A stretch of DNA of 50,381 bases, taken from contig JAISOJ010000003.1 in NCBI GenBank assembly GCA_031275735.1, forward strand, positions 1 to 50,381, read 5' to 3'. The stretch comes from Dysgonamonadaceae bacterium (GTDB lineage Bacteria; Bacteroidota; Bacteroidia; Bacteroidales; Azobacteroidaceae). Both the position numbers and the translations under genes were made by a program. Below, piece by piece: positions 27,933 to 39,129 of this stretch. Position 1 is the first letter of the stretch. The number at the start of each line of letters is the position of its first letter. Below the pieces are notes generated by a model. It was not told the DNA's origin and did not search any database. It worked only from the letters and a program-made list of their open reading frames with translations.

Positions 27933-30900
27933 ATGAAAAAAAATCAAATTTTAGCAATATTAATATTGTTTTCTCAATTAGTTATTGCACAGAGCAATCC
28001 ATTTATACGAGATCTTTATACCGCCGATCCGTCGGCGCATGTATGGAAAGATGGGAGACTTTATGTGTATCCGTCGCACGATGTAGATCCTCCGCGCGGG
28101 TGCGATTTAATGGACAAATACCATGTATATTCTACCGACGATATGATTCATTGGACGGATCACGGGGAAATTCTCCATTCAGCTCAAGTATCTTGGGGGC
28201 GTCCGGAAGGCGGATTCATGTGGGCGCCGGACTGCGCCTACCAAAACGGTACTTACTATTATTATTTCCCTCATCCCAGTGGGACCGATTGGAACAATAC
28301 TTGGAAAATCGGGATTGCTACCAGTAAAAACCCCGCAAGCGATTTTCAGGTACAAGGCTATATAGAAGGTCTGCCTGAATTTGCCATGATCGATCCCTGC
28401 GTATTTGTAGACGACGACGGACAAGCTTATTTTTACTATGGAGGCGGAAGCCGATGCATGGGTGGCAAATTAAAAGAAAATATGATGGAAATAGACGGTT
28501 CTTTGCAGGATATGGTTGGTTTGGATGATTTCCATGAAGCTACCTGGGTACATAAACGGAATGGTATTTATTATCTTTCGTATGCCGACAACGAGCGACG
28601 GGGAAATCGGTTGAAATACGCTACCAGCGTTCATCCTTTAGGCCCCTGGACTTACAGAGGAATCCTCCTGGAAACAACAGGTTCGGGTACAAACCATGGC
28701 TCCGTGGTCGAGTATAAAGGACAATGGTACCTTTTTTATCACAATTGCGATCTTTCCGGACAAGGAAACTTGCGCTCAATTTGTTTTGACAAATTGTATT
28801 ATAATCCGGACGGAACTATTCAAAAGGTAATTCAAACGACGGATTTGGAAGCTAGTAAACGAAAAATACGCATTGACGCTAATTGGATCGATCGGGCGGA
28901 ATTTTCGGGAAAAGGCGCTAAACCCGAAGGAAAAAACGTATTGTGGTATCGCCGATCGGCTAAAGTTTGGGAAGAAGCGTTACCTATCGGGAACGGAAGA
29001 TTAGGCGCTATGGTATTTGGAGGCGTGGCAGACGAACGTATTCAGTTGAATGAAAACACTTTGTGGGATGGTTATCCATTGAATCCGGACAATCCTGAGG
29101 CTTTAAAAGCATTGCCGGAAGTTCGGCGTTTATTGTTTGAAAACAAAAATAACGAAGCGGTAAAATTGGCCGAACAGACCATGATGGGTATTCCTAAAGG
29201 AATTAATTCGTACCAATCTTTAGGCGAATTATGGTTTGATACGCCTGATAAAAAAGCGGAAAACTACGTCAGAAGCTTAGATTTATCTACGGCAATAGCA
29301 ACTACAAAATATATTGCCGAGGGGGTGACTTATACTCGCGAATATTTTGCTTCGGCGGTCGATAATGTAATTGTTGTCCGCATCATAGCCGATAAAAAAA
29401 ATAAAATCAATCTCTCGTTAACTTTGAGAAGAGCGCAAAACGCAATCTGTGAGGGAGTCGATAATTCTTCCTTAATACTTAGCGGGCAGACTCCGGCAAA
29501 AGATCAGGGAGGCAGCCCGCGCGGCATACGTTTTGCAGCTCAAGTAAAAGCCGTAGCAGATGGAGGAAGCGTGAATTTTATTAATGATATTTTTACTCAT
29601 ACGCGCTTGCTGACAGTTCGAGACGCCAACGTTCTCACTTTATACATCACGGGAGCAACCAATTACCCGGGAATGAAAAATCTGGCTAAAGGGAAAGCCG
29701 TTTTTTCTGACGATCCCAGACAGAAATGTGCAACTACGCTGGCAAAAGTAATGAATAAACCTTATGAACAATTAAAAGCGGATCATATTGCCGATCATCA
29801 GAATTATTTTAACCGAGTAAATTTGGATTTGGAGGAAATTCCTGCAGAGGTAGAAGCTTTGCCTACTAACGAACGATTGGATTTGGCGCATAAAACCGGT
29901 AAACCTGATTTAGGTTTGCTTGAAACCTATTTCCAGTTTGGTCGTTACCTGCTGATCGGCTCGTCGCGTCCGGGAGGCATGCCCGCCAATTTACAAGGGC
30001 TTTGGGTATGGCAAATGAATGCGCCGTGGAACGCCGATTTTCACACGAACATCAACTTCCAAATGAATTATTGGCCGGTAGAAATTACTAACCTTTCCGA
30101 ATTACATACTCCGTTTTTCGACTTAATGGATGTATTGGTAAAACCCGGAGAACGAAGCGCGAGCGCCACTTACGGCGCTCGCGGGTGGGTAGTGCACCAT
30201 TTGACCGATGCCTGGGGATTTACCGCCCCTGCAGATGGTCCGCAAGGAATTTGGCCTATGGGGTCGGCTTGGTTGGCTCAACATACTTGGGAGCATTATT
30301 GCTTCACCGGCGACAAAGCATTTTTGTCTAACCGGGCATATCCGCTTATGAAAGGAGCTGCTCGTTTTATTATGGACTTCCTGATAGAAGCGCCCGCAGG
30401 AACAGCTTATGCCGGTAAATTGGTGACTAACCCTTCGTATTCCCCGGAAAATGCATTTTTTCTCCCTGACGGAGAACAATCGGTATTCACTTATGGGGCA
30501 ACTATGGATTTGGAAATTATCCACAATCTATTGACTAATTGCATAGAAGCTTCAAAAGTTTTAAAAATGGATAAAGATTTTCGTTCCGAATGTGAAAAAA
30601 CGCTGAAACGATTACCGCCTATCCAAATCAGTAAGGAAACAGGACGTATTTTGGAATGGGCGGAAGACTACAAAGAAGTAGAACCTCATCACCGCCATAC
30701 TTCACATTTGTTCGGTCTGTATCCGGGCAACCAAATTACGGTAGTAGGAACGCCTCAATTAGCCGAAGCGGCACGTAAAACTTTAATTGCCCGTGGAGAC
30801 GACGGAACCGGTTGGGGATTGGCTTGGAAAATCAATATGTGGAATCGCTTACATGATGGCGACCATGCCTATAAATTATTATCGGTATTATTGAGTACAA

Positions 30901-31265
30901 AAACATTACCCAATTTATTCGACGACCATCCTCCGTTTCAAATCGACGGAAATTTCGGGGCGACTGCCGCTATTGCCGAAATGTTACTCCAAAGTCATTT
31001 AACAACTTCCGACGGTTCGTTCGACATTCACCTCTTGCCTTCGCTCCCAACGGCATTGGCCGCAAAAGGTTCGATCGAAGGACTACGCGCCCGCGGCGGC
31101 TTCCTAATTGATCTTTCTTGGGAAGACGGGAAACTGAAGGAAGCGACAATTGAATCTACCTTGGGTGGAAAATTACATCTTCGCACCGGAGAAAATTACA
31201 AAACGTATTCCACCCAAAAGGGTCAAAAGTTAAAGGTAAATGAAAAGCTTCAAGTAATAAAGTAA
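27933..31265 (+). CDS. Exported GH43-GH95 fusion glycoside hydrolase
   Basis: Two full enzymes in one 1110-residue chain behind a signal peptide (about 1-20). Residues 21-310 form a GH43 five-bladed propeller with the expected triad: Asp32 (A-D-P-S, base), Asp154 (M-I-D-P-C) and Glu202 (H-E-A-T-W, acid). After a linker of about 25 residues comes GH95 (about 336-1110), starting [20 protein letters not shown]. It contains H-T-N-I-N (N707, N709), the asparagine pair of GH95 fucosidases, and conserved acids at E861 and D1005. GH43 suggests arabinofuranosidase or xylosidase activity, GH95 alpha-L-fucosidase or alpha-L-galactosidase. The frame is open throughout, so this is a true fusion. The substrate is unproven. 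Confidence 0.9.
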
Positions 31266-34469: not shown

Positions 34470-34690
34470 ATAATGGAAAATTATCAATCTCTTCCGGAAA
34501 GGAGTTTGAAAATAGTTACGGCAGTATTGACATTACCTATTGAAATAACTGCTTATCCGTTTCGGTCAAGTGCTTTGCATAGCAATATTGCTTGCTCAGC
34601 AATACTGCTTCAATAGATTGTTATATAAGTAAATAGACAGTTTTCCTTTTTTCTAAATATTAAGAACAGGAAGTAATAACAATCAACAGG

Positions 34691-34744
34691 GAGTGCATTT
34701 CAGATTGTCGTACCATATACAATGCGACAATTTGAGATGCACTC
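34691..34744. terminator. Long hairpin terminator between convergent genes
   Basis: GAGTGCAT (34691-34698) pairs with ATGCACTC (34737-34744), and the stem continues inward with a TCA/TGA step and ATTGTCG/CGACAAT, leaving a loop of about 14 bases. TCTTTTTT follows. It serves the unknown exported protein (+) and the DUF362 operon (-). The stretch 34570-34620 also has a small AGCAATATTGCT palindrome with a near copy. Confidence 0.75.
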
Positions 34745-34758
34745 TCTTTTTTCTGTTA

Positions 34759-35658
34759 CTATACGAAAGATTCTTCCTCCCAACCCAATTTCACTAATTC
34801 GATTTTAGCAGGGTCGGCTGTTCCCAGATGATAACGAGTATCTGCTAATTCGATATGCTTTGCCGGAGGATTTAATGGCCTGTCTTCCTGAAAAAAAGCG
34901 TTACGTTTGCCTTGTATGATGCGAAGTCCCACCGAGTCGACAGCAACCGGATCAAATCCAACAATCAAACCGCTGTATTTCCACATGTATTCTTCCGAAG
35001 CGTCTTGAGCTGTCCGGTGATGAAACAAGGGCTTGAACATCACCAGCACATGCAGGCGCGTTTTATTTTTTACTATCGGAAGTTCGTACAAAGTTGCCAG
35101 GCTGGCGCAGGAATCGTCGTGATAAGAAGAAGGTTGAGGCGAAAACATGATATAATTTTTGATGCATGAGCCGACTCCCGACCAAGCGTGCGTACGCATG
35201 GGACGTACATTAATTAAAGCCGTAGCCTTCTGGAATACAGGGTCTTTAAGCACTCCCCTATCATTAACGTTCACATTATCTTCACTTACACCTGTTTGAA
35301 GAACTCGCTCTTTCAATATGTCGTTCATAATTTCCGGCGTAGGAAACTTATTCCAAACATTAGTCTTAATACCAACAATATCAGCAGGTTTGATGATAGA
35401 CGCCCAAGCTTCTTTCACCGTGTTTTTTCCTGTAAGCGCACAAACGGCCTCATCCAGCATTTGAGCGGCAATCGTAGCATCCGGCTGTTCTTCACCGGCA
35501 AACAATTGCCGGTTGCGAATCAATATCACTTTACTTTTAGCATCTTTTCCTTTTGCCCATGCCCAAGCCGAAACCGGACGATTGAGAAGCACAGTTCCTC
35601 CTACAGCCATAAAAGCCGCCTTTTTCAATAAGTCGCGACGGGTAATTAATTTTTTCAT
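34759..35658 (-). CDS. Tat-exported DUF362 domain protein (second copy)
   Basis: A 299-residue protein, last gene of the four-gene unit. The N-terminus T-R-R-D-L-L-K-K-A-A-F-M-A-V-G-G is a twin-arginine signal, so it folds in the cytosol, perhaps with a cofactor, before export. DUF362 features are V-G-I-K-T-N-V, the A-W-S-G-V-G-S-C-I-K-N-Y-I-M-F core (about 163-177) and the F-D-P-V-A-V-D-S-V-G-L segment near residue 241. It has no 4Fe-4S ferredoxin motif. The sequence differs strongly from the other DUF362 protein in this unit, so it is an old paralogue. Function unknown. Confidence 0.8.
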   Translation of the reverse strand: MKKLITRRDLLKKAAFMAVGGTVLLNRPVSAWAWAKGKDAKSKVILIRNRQLFAGEEQPDATIAAQMLDEAVCALTGKNTVKEAWASIIKPADIVGIKTNVWNKFPTPEIMNDILKERVLQTGVSEDNVNVNDRGVLKDPVFQKATALINVRPMRTHAWSGVGSCIKNYIMFSPQPSSYHDDSCASLATLYELPIVKNKTRLHVLVMFKPLFHHRTAQDASEEYMWKYSGLIVGFDPVAVDSVGLRIIQGKRNAFFQEDRPLNPPAKHIELADTRYHLGTADPAKIELVKLGWEEESFV

Positions 35659-35669
35659 AACTCATTAGT

Positions 35670-36563
35670 TTACATATTATTAATAGTATCTTTAAATAAT
35701 TTTTCCGTTTGTTTGCGGGAACTTCCGTTAAAAATAGCTCCCAATTTATTTCCTTGTATCCAAACCGTAAACCAGGTCTCATCTTCCAATTCGACGATAA
35801 AATTAGTAGCGCTTAATTCCGGAGCGTATTTCTTTCGCAAATGTTCACAAGCTTCCATCGCCTCTTTTTCGTCGGGATACTCCACTATCAAAAGATAGCT
35901 ACGGGCATTGGCGTCGCCGTATTTAGCCAGAATAGCGTCGGTTTTCTCATTGATATTAATAATATCATAATCGGCAATAAAAAAATAAGCATTCAACCAA
36001 ATATAGTGATGAAAATACAGAAAACCCGCCGAAACCAAACCTTCTTCCGGTAAACAACGAGTAATAGGTGGTATTTTGCCCGTTTCGGGAATGGATTTAT
36101 CTATCAAACCAGCCAGGTACTTGATGGCTTTTTCACTTTCCGAAGTAACTTCCATCGTGTTGACAATGACAAAATACCGATCTTTCCAAAACAAGATAAA
36201 ATCGGGAAAACTTTGCGAACCCTGTCCGTAATCCTGTTCTTCTTTATCGCGGCTTTGCGTATAAACGCCGAAAGCATTGAAAGAACTTGTCATTTCGTAA
36301 ATTTCAACCGTAACCTGAGGTAAATCATTATCACCTATGTATTTACATCCTGTCATACTCGCCAATCCGTACGACAGGTACAACTCTGCTCCTCCATTGA
36401 TATAATCGTACAATTCTTTTCCTATATAATTCATTTTATCAGTAGCATGATACGACATAAAATGTTCAGGCAAATTATCGACGGAGAATTTTGCTTGTAC
36501 CAAGGCATATAAATTTGAACAGCTCATTACCAATAATAAAAAAAAATAAACAATGCGTGCCAT
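35670..36563 (-). CDS. DUF6599-like exported protein
   Basis: A 297-residue protein with an N-terminal signal sequence (M-A-R-I-V-Y-F-F-L-L-L-V-M-S-C-S). It contains Y-D-Y-I-N-G-G-A-E-L-Y-L-S-Y-G near residue 55, the hallmark of the DUF6599 family, which I know only as uncharacterised. I start at 36563 to avoid an 11-base overlap with the polyferredoxin gene and to keep the signal peptide at the front; 36584 is possible. It lies 10 bases after the polyferredoxin gene and 11 bases before the second DUF362 gene, so it is clearly in the same operon. Confidence 0.75.
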   Translation of the reverse strand: MARIVYFFLLLVMSCSNLYALVQAKFSVDNLPEHFMSYHATDKMNYIGKELYDYINGGAELYLSYGLASMTGCKYIGDNDLPQVTVEIYEMTSSFNAFGVYTQSRDKEEQDYGQGSQSFPDFILFWKDRYFVIVNTMEVTSESEKAIKYLAGLIDKSIPETGKIPPITRCLPEEGLVSAGFLYFHHYIWLNAYFFIADYDIININEKTDAILAKYGDANARSYLLIVEYPDEKEAMEACEHLRKKYAPELSATNFIVELEDETWFTVWIQGNKLGAIFNGSSRKQTEKLFKDTINNM

Positions 36564-36573
36564 CTGCTTTTTA

Positions 36574-38160
36574 TTAAAATCCAAAATCCAAGTCTTCGCT
36601 ATTGATTTTCTCTATTTCTTCCTCTTTCGGTTTGACAGCTACCTGATGAACTGCATTCGCCAACACATTAATGGCTTTTATCGGTCGAACAGGACAAATA
36701 GATTCACATCCACCGCAACCGATACACATTTCTTCATACACATGAGGAATTGTTAAGCCGTCGATATAGGGTTCCATTCTAACGGCTTGGACAGGACAGT
36801 GTTCCGAACAAGCGCCACAAGAAGTATTATCGGTAAAAACCACACAACGGTCTTTCACAAATCGAGCAATACCTACTTGAGTCACTTTCTTTTCCTCCGT
36901 AGTCAACCGCTCTATCGCCCCGTTCGGACAGATCTCCGAACAAACGGTACATTCGTAATTGCAAAAAGCCATTTCGTAAAACACCATGCGCGGCTTGAAT
37001 GCATAATTAATACCAAAATCAAATCCTGCCGGCTTTAAAATTTGCTGGGGGCAATGCGTCACGCACAAATGACAGGCTGTGCAACGTTCCTTGAAATGTT
37101 TCAAACTGCGGGAACCCGGAGGCGTAATAGGCGTCAATTTAGTAATATCAATCTCTTCATTCTTTTTTGCCCAAGCCGGAATAAAAGGGATAGTTGTTGC
37201 CATAGCGGTAGACGCTAAAATAAACGAACGACGATTTATTCCATATTCGCCTGTCATTTTATTTTGCTTTGCCGGTATATTTTTTTCGCTTACAGAATGA
37301 TAATTCTTCCTCAAAGAATAAGCAAAACGATATCCGATACCTTTTTTATTACATCGATCTAAACAATTGAAACAAGTTACGCAACGAGAATAATCGACCG
37401 TTTTTTCTTTACTGTTGATGCATTGCGACTTACATGCCTTTTCGCACAACCGGCAACCTGTACACCGCTTTTCGTCCAAAACTATTCGGAAAATAGCCCA
37501 TCGGGAAAACAATCCCAATAGCGAACCAACCGGACATATCGTGTTGCAAAATAAACGACCGCGCAAAAACGACATAATTCCCACCAACAACAAAGCTATC
37601 GCCGCAATGGAAAAAGAATAAGTCGTAACGGTATAAATAGTTACATGATAAAAATCATAATTGTTGAATTTCAAAGCAATCCAGTTAATTAAATTATTTC
37701 CCTCCATAACTACCGGACGGAAAATATTCACAGCAATACGACCGAAATTGCTGTATGGGTCTAATAAAAGAAGAGGCGTCGTAATCCCAAAAATCAAAAA
37801 TACGGCACAGATTGCCAGTAAAGAATATCGTAAAATAGTGTAAGGTTTAGCATAATTATACCAACGTTTTTTCTTATTTTTCTTCTTCCCTCTTTGGGTT
37901 AAACGCGCAATTATATCCTGAAAAATTCCCAAAGGACAAATGACCGAGCAATAAATCCGCCCGAACAAAAAAGCCAGTATCGCCAAGCCTACTAAAATCC
38001 AGATACTTCCGGCAAGAATAGACGGAACTAATTGTATCCGCAGCAAGTTTGAGAAGAAATCGGGAAAAATATCTGCAAAGTCGCAAAAAAATAAGAGAAC
38101 CAGAAGGAAAACTAATCCTGCTAAAATAATACGGATTACCTTCAGAATATTAAATTTCAT
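36574..38160 (-). CDS. Membrane polyferredoxin (NapH-like) with internal twin-arginine motif
   Basis: A 528-residue iron-sulfur protein. Residues 1-225 hold about five membrane helices with two C-x3-C-P motifs (C71/C75, C205/C209), as in NapH/RnfH-like proteins. Two 4Fe-4S motifs follow (C233-C243 and C260-C270). Then I-N-R-R-S-F-I-L-A-S-T-A-M-A-T-T (308-323) resembles a Tat signal in mid-protein. After it come four more cysteine clusters (C360-C370, C400-C411, C448-C455, C479-C489) like NapG. It therefore looks like a NapH-NapG fusion placing the last clusters outside the membrane to carry electrons to the DUF362 partners. It lies 39 bases after the first DUF362 gene. Confidence 0.85.
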   Translation of the reverse strand: MKFNILKVIRIILAGLVFLLVLLFFCDFADIFPDFFSNLLRIQLVPSILAGSIWILVGLAILAFLFGRIYCSVICPLGIFQDIIARLTQRGKKKNKKKRWYNYAKPYTILRYSLLAICAVFLIFGITTPLLLLDPYSNFGRIAVNIFRPVVMEGNNLINWIALKFNNYDFYHVTIYTVTTYSFSIAAIALLLVGIMSFLRGRLFCNTICPVGSLLGLFSRWAIFRIVLDEKRCTGCRLCEKACKSQCINSKEKTVDYSRCVTCFNCLDRCNKKGIGYRFAYSLRKNYHSVSEKNIPAKQNKMTGEYGINRRSFILASTAMATTIPFIPAWAKKNEEIDITKLTPITPPGSRSLKHFKERCTACHLCVTHCPQQILKPAGFDFGINYAFKPRMVFYEMAFCNYECTVCSEICPNGAIERLTTEEKKVTQVGIARFVKDRCVVFTDNTSCGACSEHCPVQAVRMEPYIDGLTIPHVYEEMCIGCGGCESICPVRPIKAINVLANAVHQVAVKPKEEEIEKINSEDLDFGF

Positions 38161-38199
38161 TGTGGATTAAAGTGACGAATGCCAAGGATTAAGCGCTTT

Positions 38200-39129
38200 T
38201 TATAGCTTTATCCGTTTAACATTCAATTTATTAATATTTTGAGTGCCTAATTTCAATTTTTCGCCATTGGCAATATGACCTACCTGTTTAATATCCATTT
38301 TTTCCACCTGATTAAATAAACCAATGGCGGCCGTATCGGCAGCAACAATATCGGTCGAAACAATCAGCGTTTTTAAAACACTAGTATCGGAAACCGAGCG
38401 GCCTTGCGGTCCATTTTTACGCATACAACGGTAAGCGTCGATGATATTCAAAGCCGGTTTTTTTGTCCAAGTACAGGAATCGGCAATACATTGCTGTAAA
38501 TCATTGGAATGGAAATAACCTCTGTCCCAAACGATTCCCATATAATTTTTCATAGCGATCGACATTTTAGCGCCACCATGATTTTTCAATACCGGCACAT
38601 TAAACCAAACATCGGCCTCCAACAAAGCTTGATGGATTTGGGTTGATTTTAGTTTTACTCCTTGCGGAAGTTTTACTTCTTTATAATAAATTTCATCATT
38701 ACCCGGAAGAACCGTTGCCCCAGCTGCTTCTGCAGCTTTTTTAATACCGGAATTTTCATAGCATTTTTGCCAATTATCGCAGGTATGATCAAAGACCGTC
38801 ACCTTTTTAGCGCCGGCATTAAGACATTGTTTTATTAATGCCGCCACTAATTCGGGGTTCGTATTTGCCGCAAAATCCGGCTTTTTATCCCAACCTATGT
38901 TGGGCTTAATTACGACACTTTGACCTTTTTTAACGTATTTCCCAATACCTCCCATTTCTTTCAACGCTCTTTCCAACAATTGAGTTGGTTCTCCGCCCAT
39001 GACAGCCACCATATCAGGAACTGCTTCTACCATTAAACTGTTCGTAGACATAGCAGCTTGCAAATTATCAAAAGTCAGTGCAGCAACACCCACAGCAGCG
39101 GTTGTTCTTAAAAAATCTCGACGTTTCAT
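38200..39129 (-). CDS. Tat-exported DUF362 domain protein (first copy)
   Basis: First gene of the four-gene unit, 309 residues. The M-K-R-R-D-F-L-R-T-T start is a twin-arginine signal. DUF362 core motifs: K-P-N-I-G-W near residue 75, V-P-V-L-K-N-H-G-G-A-K-M-S-I-A-M-K-N-Y-M near 180-200, D-A-Y-R-C-M and D-I-V-A-A-D-T-A-A-I-G-L. Cysteines are few and not in a ferredoxin pattern. The family is often annotated as iron-sulfur related because it occurs beside ferredoxins, as here. Its biochemical role is unknown to me. A -7 element is at 39164-39171. Confidence 0.82.
   Translation of the reverse strand: MKRRDFLRTTAAVGVAALTFDNLQAAMSTNSLMVEAVPDMVAVMGGEPTQLLERALKEMGGIGKYVKKGQSVVIKPNIGWDKKPDFAANTNPELVAALIKQCLNAGAKKVTVFDHTCDNWQKCYENSGIKKAAEAAGATVLPGNDEIYYKEVKLPQGVKLKSTQIHQALLEADVWFNVPVLKNHGGAKMSIAMKNYMGIVWDRGYFHSNDLQQCIADSCTWTKKPALNIIDAYRCMRKNGPQGRSVSDTSVLKTLIVSTDIVAADTAAIGLFNQVEKMDIKQVGHIANGEKLKLGTQNINKLNVKRIKL

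Follow-up and report, generated by a model that had tools for sequence, protein, structure and literature searches.

Introduction

DUF362 proteins, which we take to be the same family as COG2006, have no assigned function in the parts of the literature examined, and our literature search found no paper that names DUF6599. Here we analyze a four-gene operon that encodes both families together with a polyferredoxin, at positions 34759-39129 of a 50,381-nucleotide stretch of DNA (the window) from a Dysgonamonadaceae bacterium (GenBank contig JAISOJ010000003.1). Two kinds of described system lie closest to it. In the lactate racemase LarA, His174 is catalytic and Lys184 tethers the nickel-pincer nucleotide (NPN). 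In NapG/NapH, NapH carries CxxxCP motifs and two clusters and NapG carries a twin-arginine translocation (Tat) signal and four clusters; for MauM/MauN a role in maturation has been proposed. One published study takes DUF362 as an outgroup of LarA, another reports Fe-S motifs nested within DUF362 proteins, and a third describes a DUF362-CBM9 fusion. DUF362 and LarA (PF09861) are assigned to a common Pfam clan, CL0471 (PMC11770544, PMC7955657), and association-based predictions in a re-annotated genome give COG2006 a redox role (PMC4510573). Which proteins use NPN in the approximately 15% of analyzed genomes that have larB, larC and larE without larA is posed as an open question (PMC11796402).

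We find that the operon is two conserved pairs joined, DUF362a with the polyferredoxin and DUF6599 with DUF362b. Together they likely represent a widespread two-module system of the envelope with a redox role, which in this host lineage is carried as one operon.

Results

Two conserved gene pairs are joined in one operon

Open reading frame (ORF) calls confirm the minus-strand set of four genes that had been proposed from the letters of the DNA by an earlier, sequence-only reading. The features are:

38200..39129, minus strand: DUF362a, 309 aa, with a Tat signal and H184-x9-K194-N195 (PF04015; motif in 44/44 rows; alignment with the LarA His/Lys)
36574..38160, minus strand: polyferredoxin, 528 aa, best read as the fusion of a NapH-like part and a NapG-like part that has a Tat signal (NCBIfam, Pfam, cysteines, hydrophobicity)
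35670..36563, minus strand: DUF6599, exported, two predicted domains (PF20244; AlphaFold2; ATG at 36563 assumed)
34759..35658, minus strand: DUF362b, 299 aa, with a Tat signal, a predicted LarA fold, H157-x9-K167-N168, H180 and C184
34692..34743, minus strand: hairpin just behind the operon, a possible terminator (predicted fold energy, inverted arms)

The intergenic gaps of 39 and 11 bases given earlier are exact, and that of 10 holds provided that the ATG at 36563 is the true start of DUF6599; the TTG at 36584, the start chosen by the ORF tool, would give an 11-base overlap with the polyferredoxin.

When DUF362b was searched against named genomes, 307 relatives were returned, the best 80 of which were taken as loci; a Melioribacter genome (L086) is among the carriers. 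DUF6599 lies directly before DUF362b in 78 of the 80, across many phyla; one exception lacks DUF6599 and the other begins at a contig edge. The polyferredoxin, by contrast, occurs in only six of the 80, namely L084, in which the two pairs adjoin on opposite strands, and five loci closely related to the window, and in three of the 52 loci that have at least 3 kb before DUF6599. Among these best 80 of 307 relatives, the four-gene order was confined to the window and loci closely related to it. On these counts the four genes are not a single operon conserved across a wide range of genomes. DUF362a and the polyferredoxin form a pair of their own, present in 41 of 42 DUF362a loci (the best-scoring 30 from the DUF362b-genome search and 12 from the phylum sample described below, window included).

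The two modules also co-occur. Whole-genome searches covered 49 genomes, drawn from 50 of the 80 loci with L048 left out, and DUF362a was found in 45 of them (E 1e-15). Among 395 sampled genomes from the phylum of the host (the phylum sample), DUF362b occurs in seven genomes and DUF362a in 41; six of the seven have both (Fisher p 5.7e-6, kinship ignored), or five of six when the window's genome is excluded (p 4.7e-5, kinship likewise ignored). DUF362a is the more widespread, and DUF6599-DUF362b appears to have been added to it. Neighbors that vary freely in related genomes, which the sequence-only reading had named as grounds for abandoning its proposal, are what we see for the foursome outside near relatives, whereas both pairs hold together. 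What stands of that reading is the anatomy, the export signals, the NapGH likeness and the link between the parts; its single conserved operon gives way to two co-occurring pairs.

Separately, the DUF6599 gene of one relative (L022/L044) is broken by a stop while the adjacent DUF362b frame is open. The closest DUF362b loci, again among the best 80 of 307, are assigned to Dysgonamonadaceae bacterium, Prevotellaceae bacterium and Candidatus Symbiothrix. Symbiothrix-like Bacteroidales inhabit termite guts, and the host, whose genome is a 2.43 Mb draft (75.86% complete), is from this habitat of its kin probably a termite-gut member of the order.

Export signals and a NapGH-like polyferredoxin

Both DUF362 proteins belong to PF04015 (cut-off 24 bits), DUF362a with 174.5 bits (E 3.6e-51) and DUF362b with 34.3 bits (E 3.2e-8), the latter over profile positions 96-199 only. 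DUF362a also matches NF052623, the Npun_F2552 family, weakly (61.4 bits, cut-off 500). Tat-type signals are present on both, as had been proposed: RRDFLR in DUF362a, where PF10518 scores 20.6 bits, under its cut-off of 22.7, and TRRDLLKK in DUF362b, which has no Pfam match for the motif but keeps R7 and R8 in at least 90% of 50 rows. H184, K194 and N195 of DUF362a are invariant in 44/44 rows, 42 of them distinct. Alignment A4 comprised 49 relatives and the window and alignment A5 47 relatives and the window; L248, partly masked, and L242 were excluded from alignment A7.

The polyferredoxin had been described as a membrane protein with six ferredoxin-like cysteine clusters, and this is borne out. 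Four hydrophobic segments lie at approximately residues 8-26, 48-66, 114-132 and 181-199, several Fer4 families of Pfam match, and the cysteines suffice for six [4Fe-4S] clusters in addition to two CxxxCP motifs. Clusters 1 and 2 are at 233-243 and 260-270; the four further clusters extend to residue 489 and follow a Tat-like RR at 310-311 that has a hydrophobic stretch behind it. Since this RR comes after the membrane part, the sequence suggests a location beyond the membrane for the four clusters that follow it.

The top two NCBIfam matches of the polyferredoxin are NapG (308-506) and NapH (best stretch 180-277), in keeping with the NapGH-like nature claimed for it, though both are far under their cut-offs (68.8 of 269 bits and 67.8 of 213.05 bits). 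The NapH/MauN and MauM/NapG models match under their cut-offs. The chain has the layout of NapGH-type proteins, with CxxxCP motifs and two clusters in its NapH-like part and a Tat-like signal and four clusters in its NapG-like part. In one genome (G284, locus L193) the NapH-like and NapG-like parts are separate genes, the NapG-like one beginning with a Tat-like RR. The polyferredoxin is best read, on its sequence, as a NapH-NapG fusion.

DUF6599 belongs to PF20244 (91 bits, E 9.4e-26, cut-off 27) and has an ordinary hydrophobic start. Its AlphaFold2 model has two domains (mean predicted local distance difference test score 93.7), and PDB matches of the modeled domains, taken one by one, show a resemblance to sensor and binding domains.

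A second DUF6599 type was seen at 11 loci (L004, L006-L010, L012-L014 and L024 among them), and at nine of these it lies directly behind an aldo/keto reductase; L024 6655-8703 is an example from the window's own genome (G000:C31). The reductase frame of L010 is in two pieces, and all six of the DUF6599-neighboring reductases scanned carry a 4Fe-4S domain.

DUF362 and the LarA fold

Sequence searches for relatives of known structure gave none for DUF362 or for DUF6599. Structure prediction assigns DUF362b with confidence to the LarA fold over approximately 170 residues. With Foldseek alone, no PDB entry matched DUF362b at E 0.001; the top-ranked entry, 9q3k, is a LarA-like enzyme and came in at 1.6e-3. 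When a sub-region of DUF362a was compared with LarA, H184 and K194 fell in register with His174 and Lys184 (Lactobacillus plantarum numbers; P 0.0028, 0/100 shuffles).

Whole-length profile comparisons of DUF362a or DUF362b with LarA were not significant, and N-terminal sub-regions of DUF362 gave no usable alignment with it; with deeper rows, the best local match (E 0.01) fell in the C-terminal domain of LarA and in a different register. PF09861 is absent from the Pfam matches of both DUF362 proteins at E 0.01. Equivalents of LarA D72, R75, H108, K298 and H200 are present in 24/24 LarA rows (sequences with masked letters or of at least 560 aa were excluded from this set). In the sub-region alignment a conserved DUF362a His sits two columns off H200. 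D-x-x-R occurs in DUF362a only at 5-8 and 231-234, with R234 in 27/44 rows, and is absent from DUF362b.

A proposed electron path and its alternatives

We propose, with a probability of about 0.5, that the operon encodes a quinol-fed redox system of the envelope whose exported acceptors are LarA-fold DUF362 proteins and in which DUF6599 is an exported partner. The NapH-like part of the polyferredoxin would take electrons at the membrane from quinol or a cytoplasmic donor and pass them through the exported NapG-like part to the two Tat-exported DUF362 proteins. There the invariant His and Lys may occupy the positions at which LarA has its catalytic His and its tethered cofactor, and we infer a bound cofactor and a reductive reaction. 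DUF6599, made together with DUF362b, would perhaps bind the substrate or a partner.

Several observations weigh against this proposal. The DUF362a sub-region was chosen only after the motif had been seen, and the LarA register rests on that run; DUF362b alone, compared with the LarA motif region, gave the same register without significance (32/100 shuffles as high). One of the 42 DUF362a loci, L165, has no adjacent polyferredoxin match, and 4 of the 49 DUF362b genomes have no DUF362a match. Finally, NapGH itself may serve reductive maturation rather than electron supply (PMC6195509).

This last point leads to a tentative alternative, in which the polyferredoxin reduces or assembles the DUF362 cofactor outside the membrane and feeds no reaction. 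The role proposed for NapGH and the matches to the NapH/MauN and MauM/NapG models, under cut-offs as they are, speak for it. Set against it, the Tat pathway is described as carrying fully folded proteins (PMC3712460), so that the cofactor would usually be in place before export.

We consider it unlikely that DUF362a is a non-LarA NPN protein, whose invariant Lys would bind NPN made by LarB, LarE and LarC ahead of export and polyferredoxin-driven redox chemistry. The idea draws on the predicted LarA fold of DUF362b, on the alignment of the DUF362a His and Lys with those of LarA, and on the nickel-pincer genes around DUF362a (thresholds E 1e-20 for LarC and LarE, E 1e-6 for LarA). LarC (PF01969) is divergent from DUF362a at a distance of 92-307 bases in 13 of the 49 genomes, two of these neighbors being verified with NCBIfam as well. 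G284 has a six-gene run of DUF362a, NapH-like, NapG-like, LarC, LarE and LarB (L193 6648-11970), its Lar genes over the NCBIfam cut-offs, and LarA was not found there at E 1e-6. The window's genome, 76% complete, holds larE-larB-larC beside a NicO-type nickel transport gene (L192 8659-12373; G000:C90), and no LarA at the same threshold. In the phylum sample LarC occurs in 14 of 41 DUF362a genomes versus 10 of 354 without DUF362a (p 1.7e-9, kinship ignored); for DUF362b the count is 2/7 (p 0.06).

The same surveys tell against NPN. LarC and LarE are both absent from 27 of the 41 DUF362a genomes, which rules out a general need of DUF362a for NPN, and LarE is missing from two of the 14 LarC-positive ones. 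The His/Lys motif is identical in all 44 DUF362a rows, LarC-less carriers included, and LarC is missing from G610-G616, including G610 and G612, which carry the same operon. Elsewhere in the 13 LarC-adjacent genomes LarA is a strong match in nine, a weak match in three and absent in one, and DUF362a is no commoner among LarC genomes without LarA (6/11) than among those with it (8/13; 24 genomes, p 1). A tree of DUF362a, from which two duplicate rows were excluded, allows a single origin of the divergent LarC (12 labeled rows versus 4 labeled others, 26 unlabeled), and the arrangement may therefore be inheritance. PF09861 was rejected as a clean mark of NPN use, since 11 of 24 genomes with a match, mostly a weak one, have no LarC.

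In two further loci, larC-larE-larB runs lie beside an aldo/keto reductase whose start is Tat-like (L198 1662-5621, L199 197-4153); LarA was not found in either genome at E 1e-6.

A related proposal, which we regard as doubtful, makes DUF362a a LarA-fold redox enzyme that would be loaded in the cytoplasm with a pincer-type tethered metal cofactor (NPN, or a relative whose synthesis needs neither LarC nor LarE) before its export by Tat, and that the NapH-NapG fusion would connect to the quinone pool. If true, a pincer-bearing DUF362a would account for some of the genomes in which NPN is made without LarA.

That the DUF362 proteins are exported, non-redox binders of ligands or metals, with the polyferredoxin serving another periplasmic enzyme, is improbable given the tight DUF362a-polyferredoxin pair (41/42 loci), even though DUF6599 resembles sensor and binding domains.

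Other features of the window

The region 34675-34760, which contains the hairpin behind the operon, has a predicted fold energy of -30.4 kcal/mol, with 0/200 shuffles as low. When up to 3 mismatches were allowed, the hairpin arm had no second match within the window, and counts of promoter and terminator patterns were close to the shuffled means. At 27933-31265 the window encodes a 1110-aa protein in which a GH43 domain is joined to GH95 domains.

Discussion

The quinol-fed redox system proposed here would give DUF362 and DUF6599 a concrete setting, a two-module envelope system found across many phyla. As a LarA-fold family found beside larBCE, DUF362 is also a direct candidate for an NPN user, and one that would be informative even if the answer were negative.

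The locus resembles three known groups in part. With LarA it shares the predicted fold of DUF362b, the equivalents of His174 and Lys184 in DUF362a, and clan CL0471. Unlike LarA, which has approximately 420 residues, the DUF362 proteins here have approximately 300 and carry a Tat signal, and the 27 of 41 DUF362a carriers without LarC and LarE set them apart further. With NapG/NapH and MauM/MauN the polyferredoxin shares four hydrophobic segments, CxxxCP and two clusters, followed by a Tat-like signal and four clusters; it differs from NapG/NapH in having both parts in one chain. No Nap or methylamine dehydrogenase genes were noticed beside it, and no search was aimed at them. As for the Npun_F2552/DUF362 family, both operon proteins match PF04015, and the family names carry no function. 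What distinguishes the DUF362 proteins of this operon from the family at large is that they are exported and paired, one with a polyferredoxin and the other with DUF6599.
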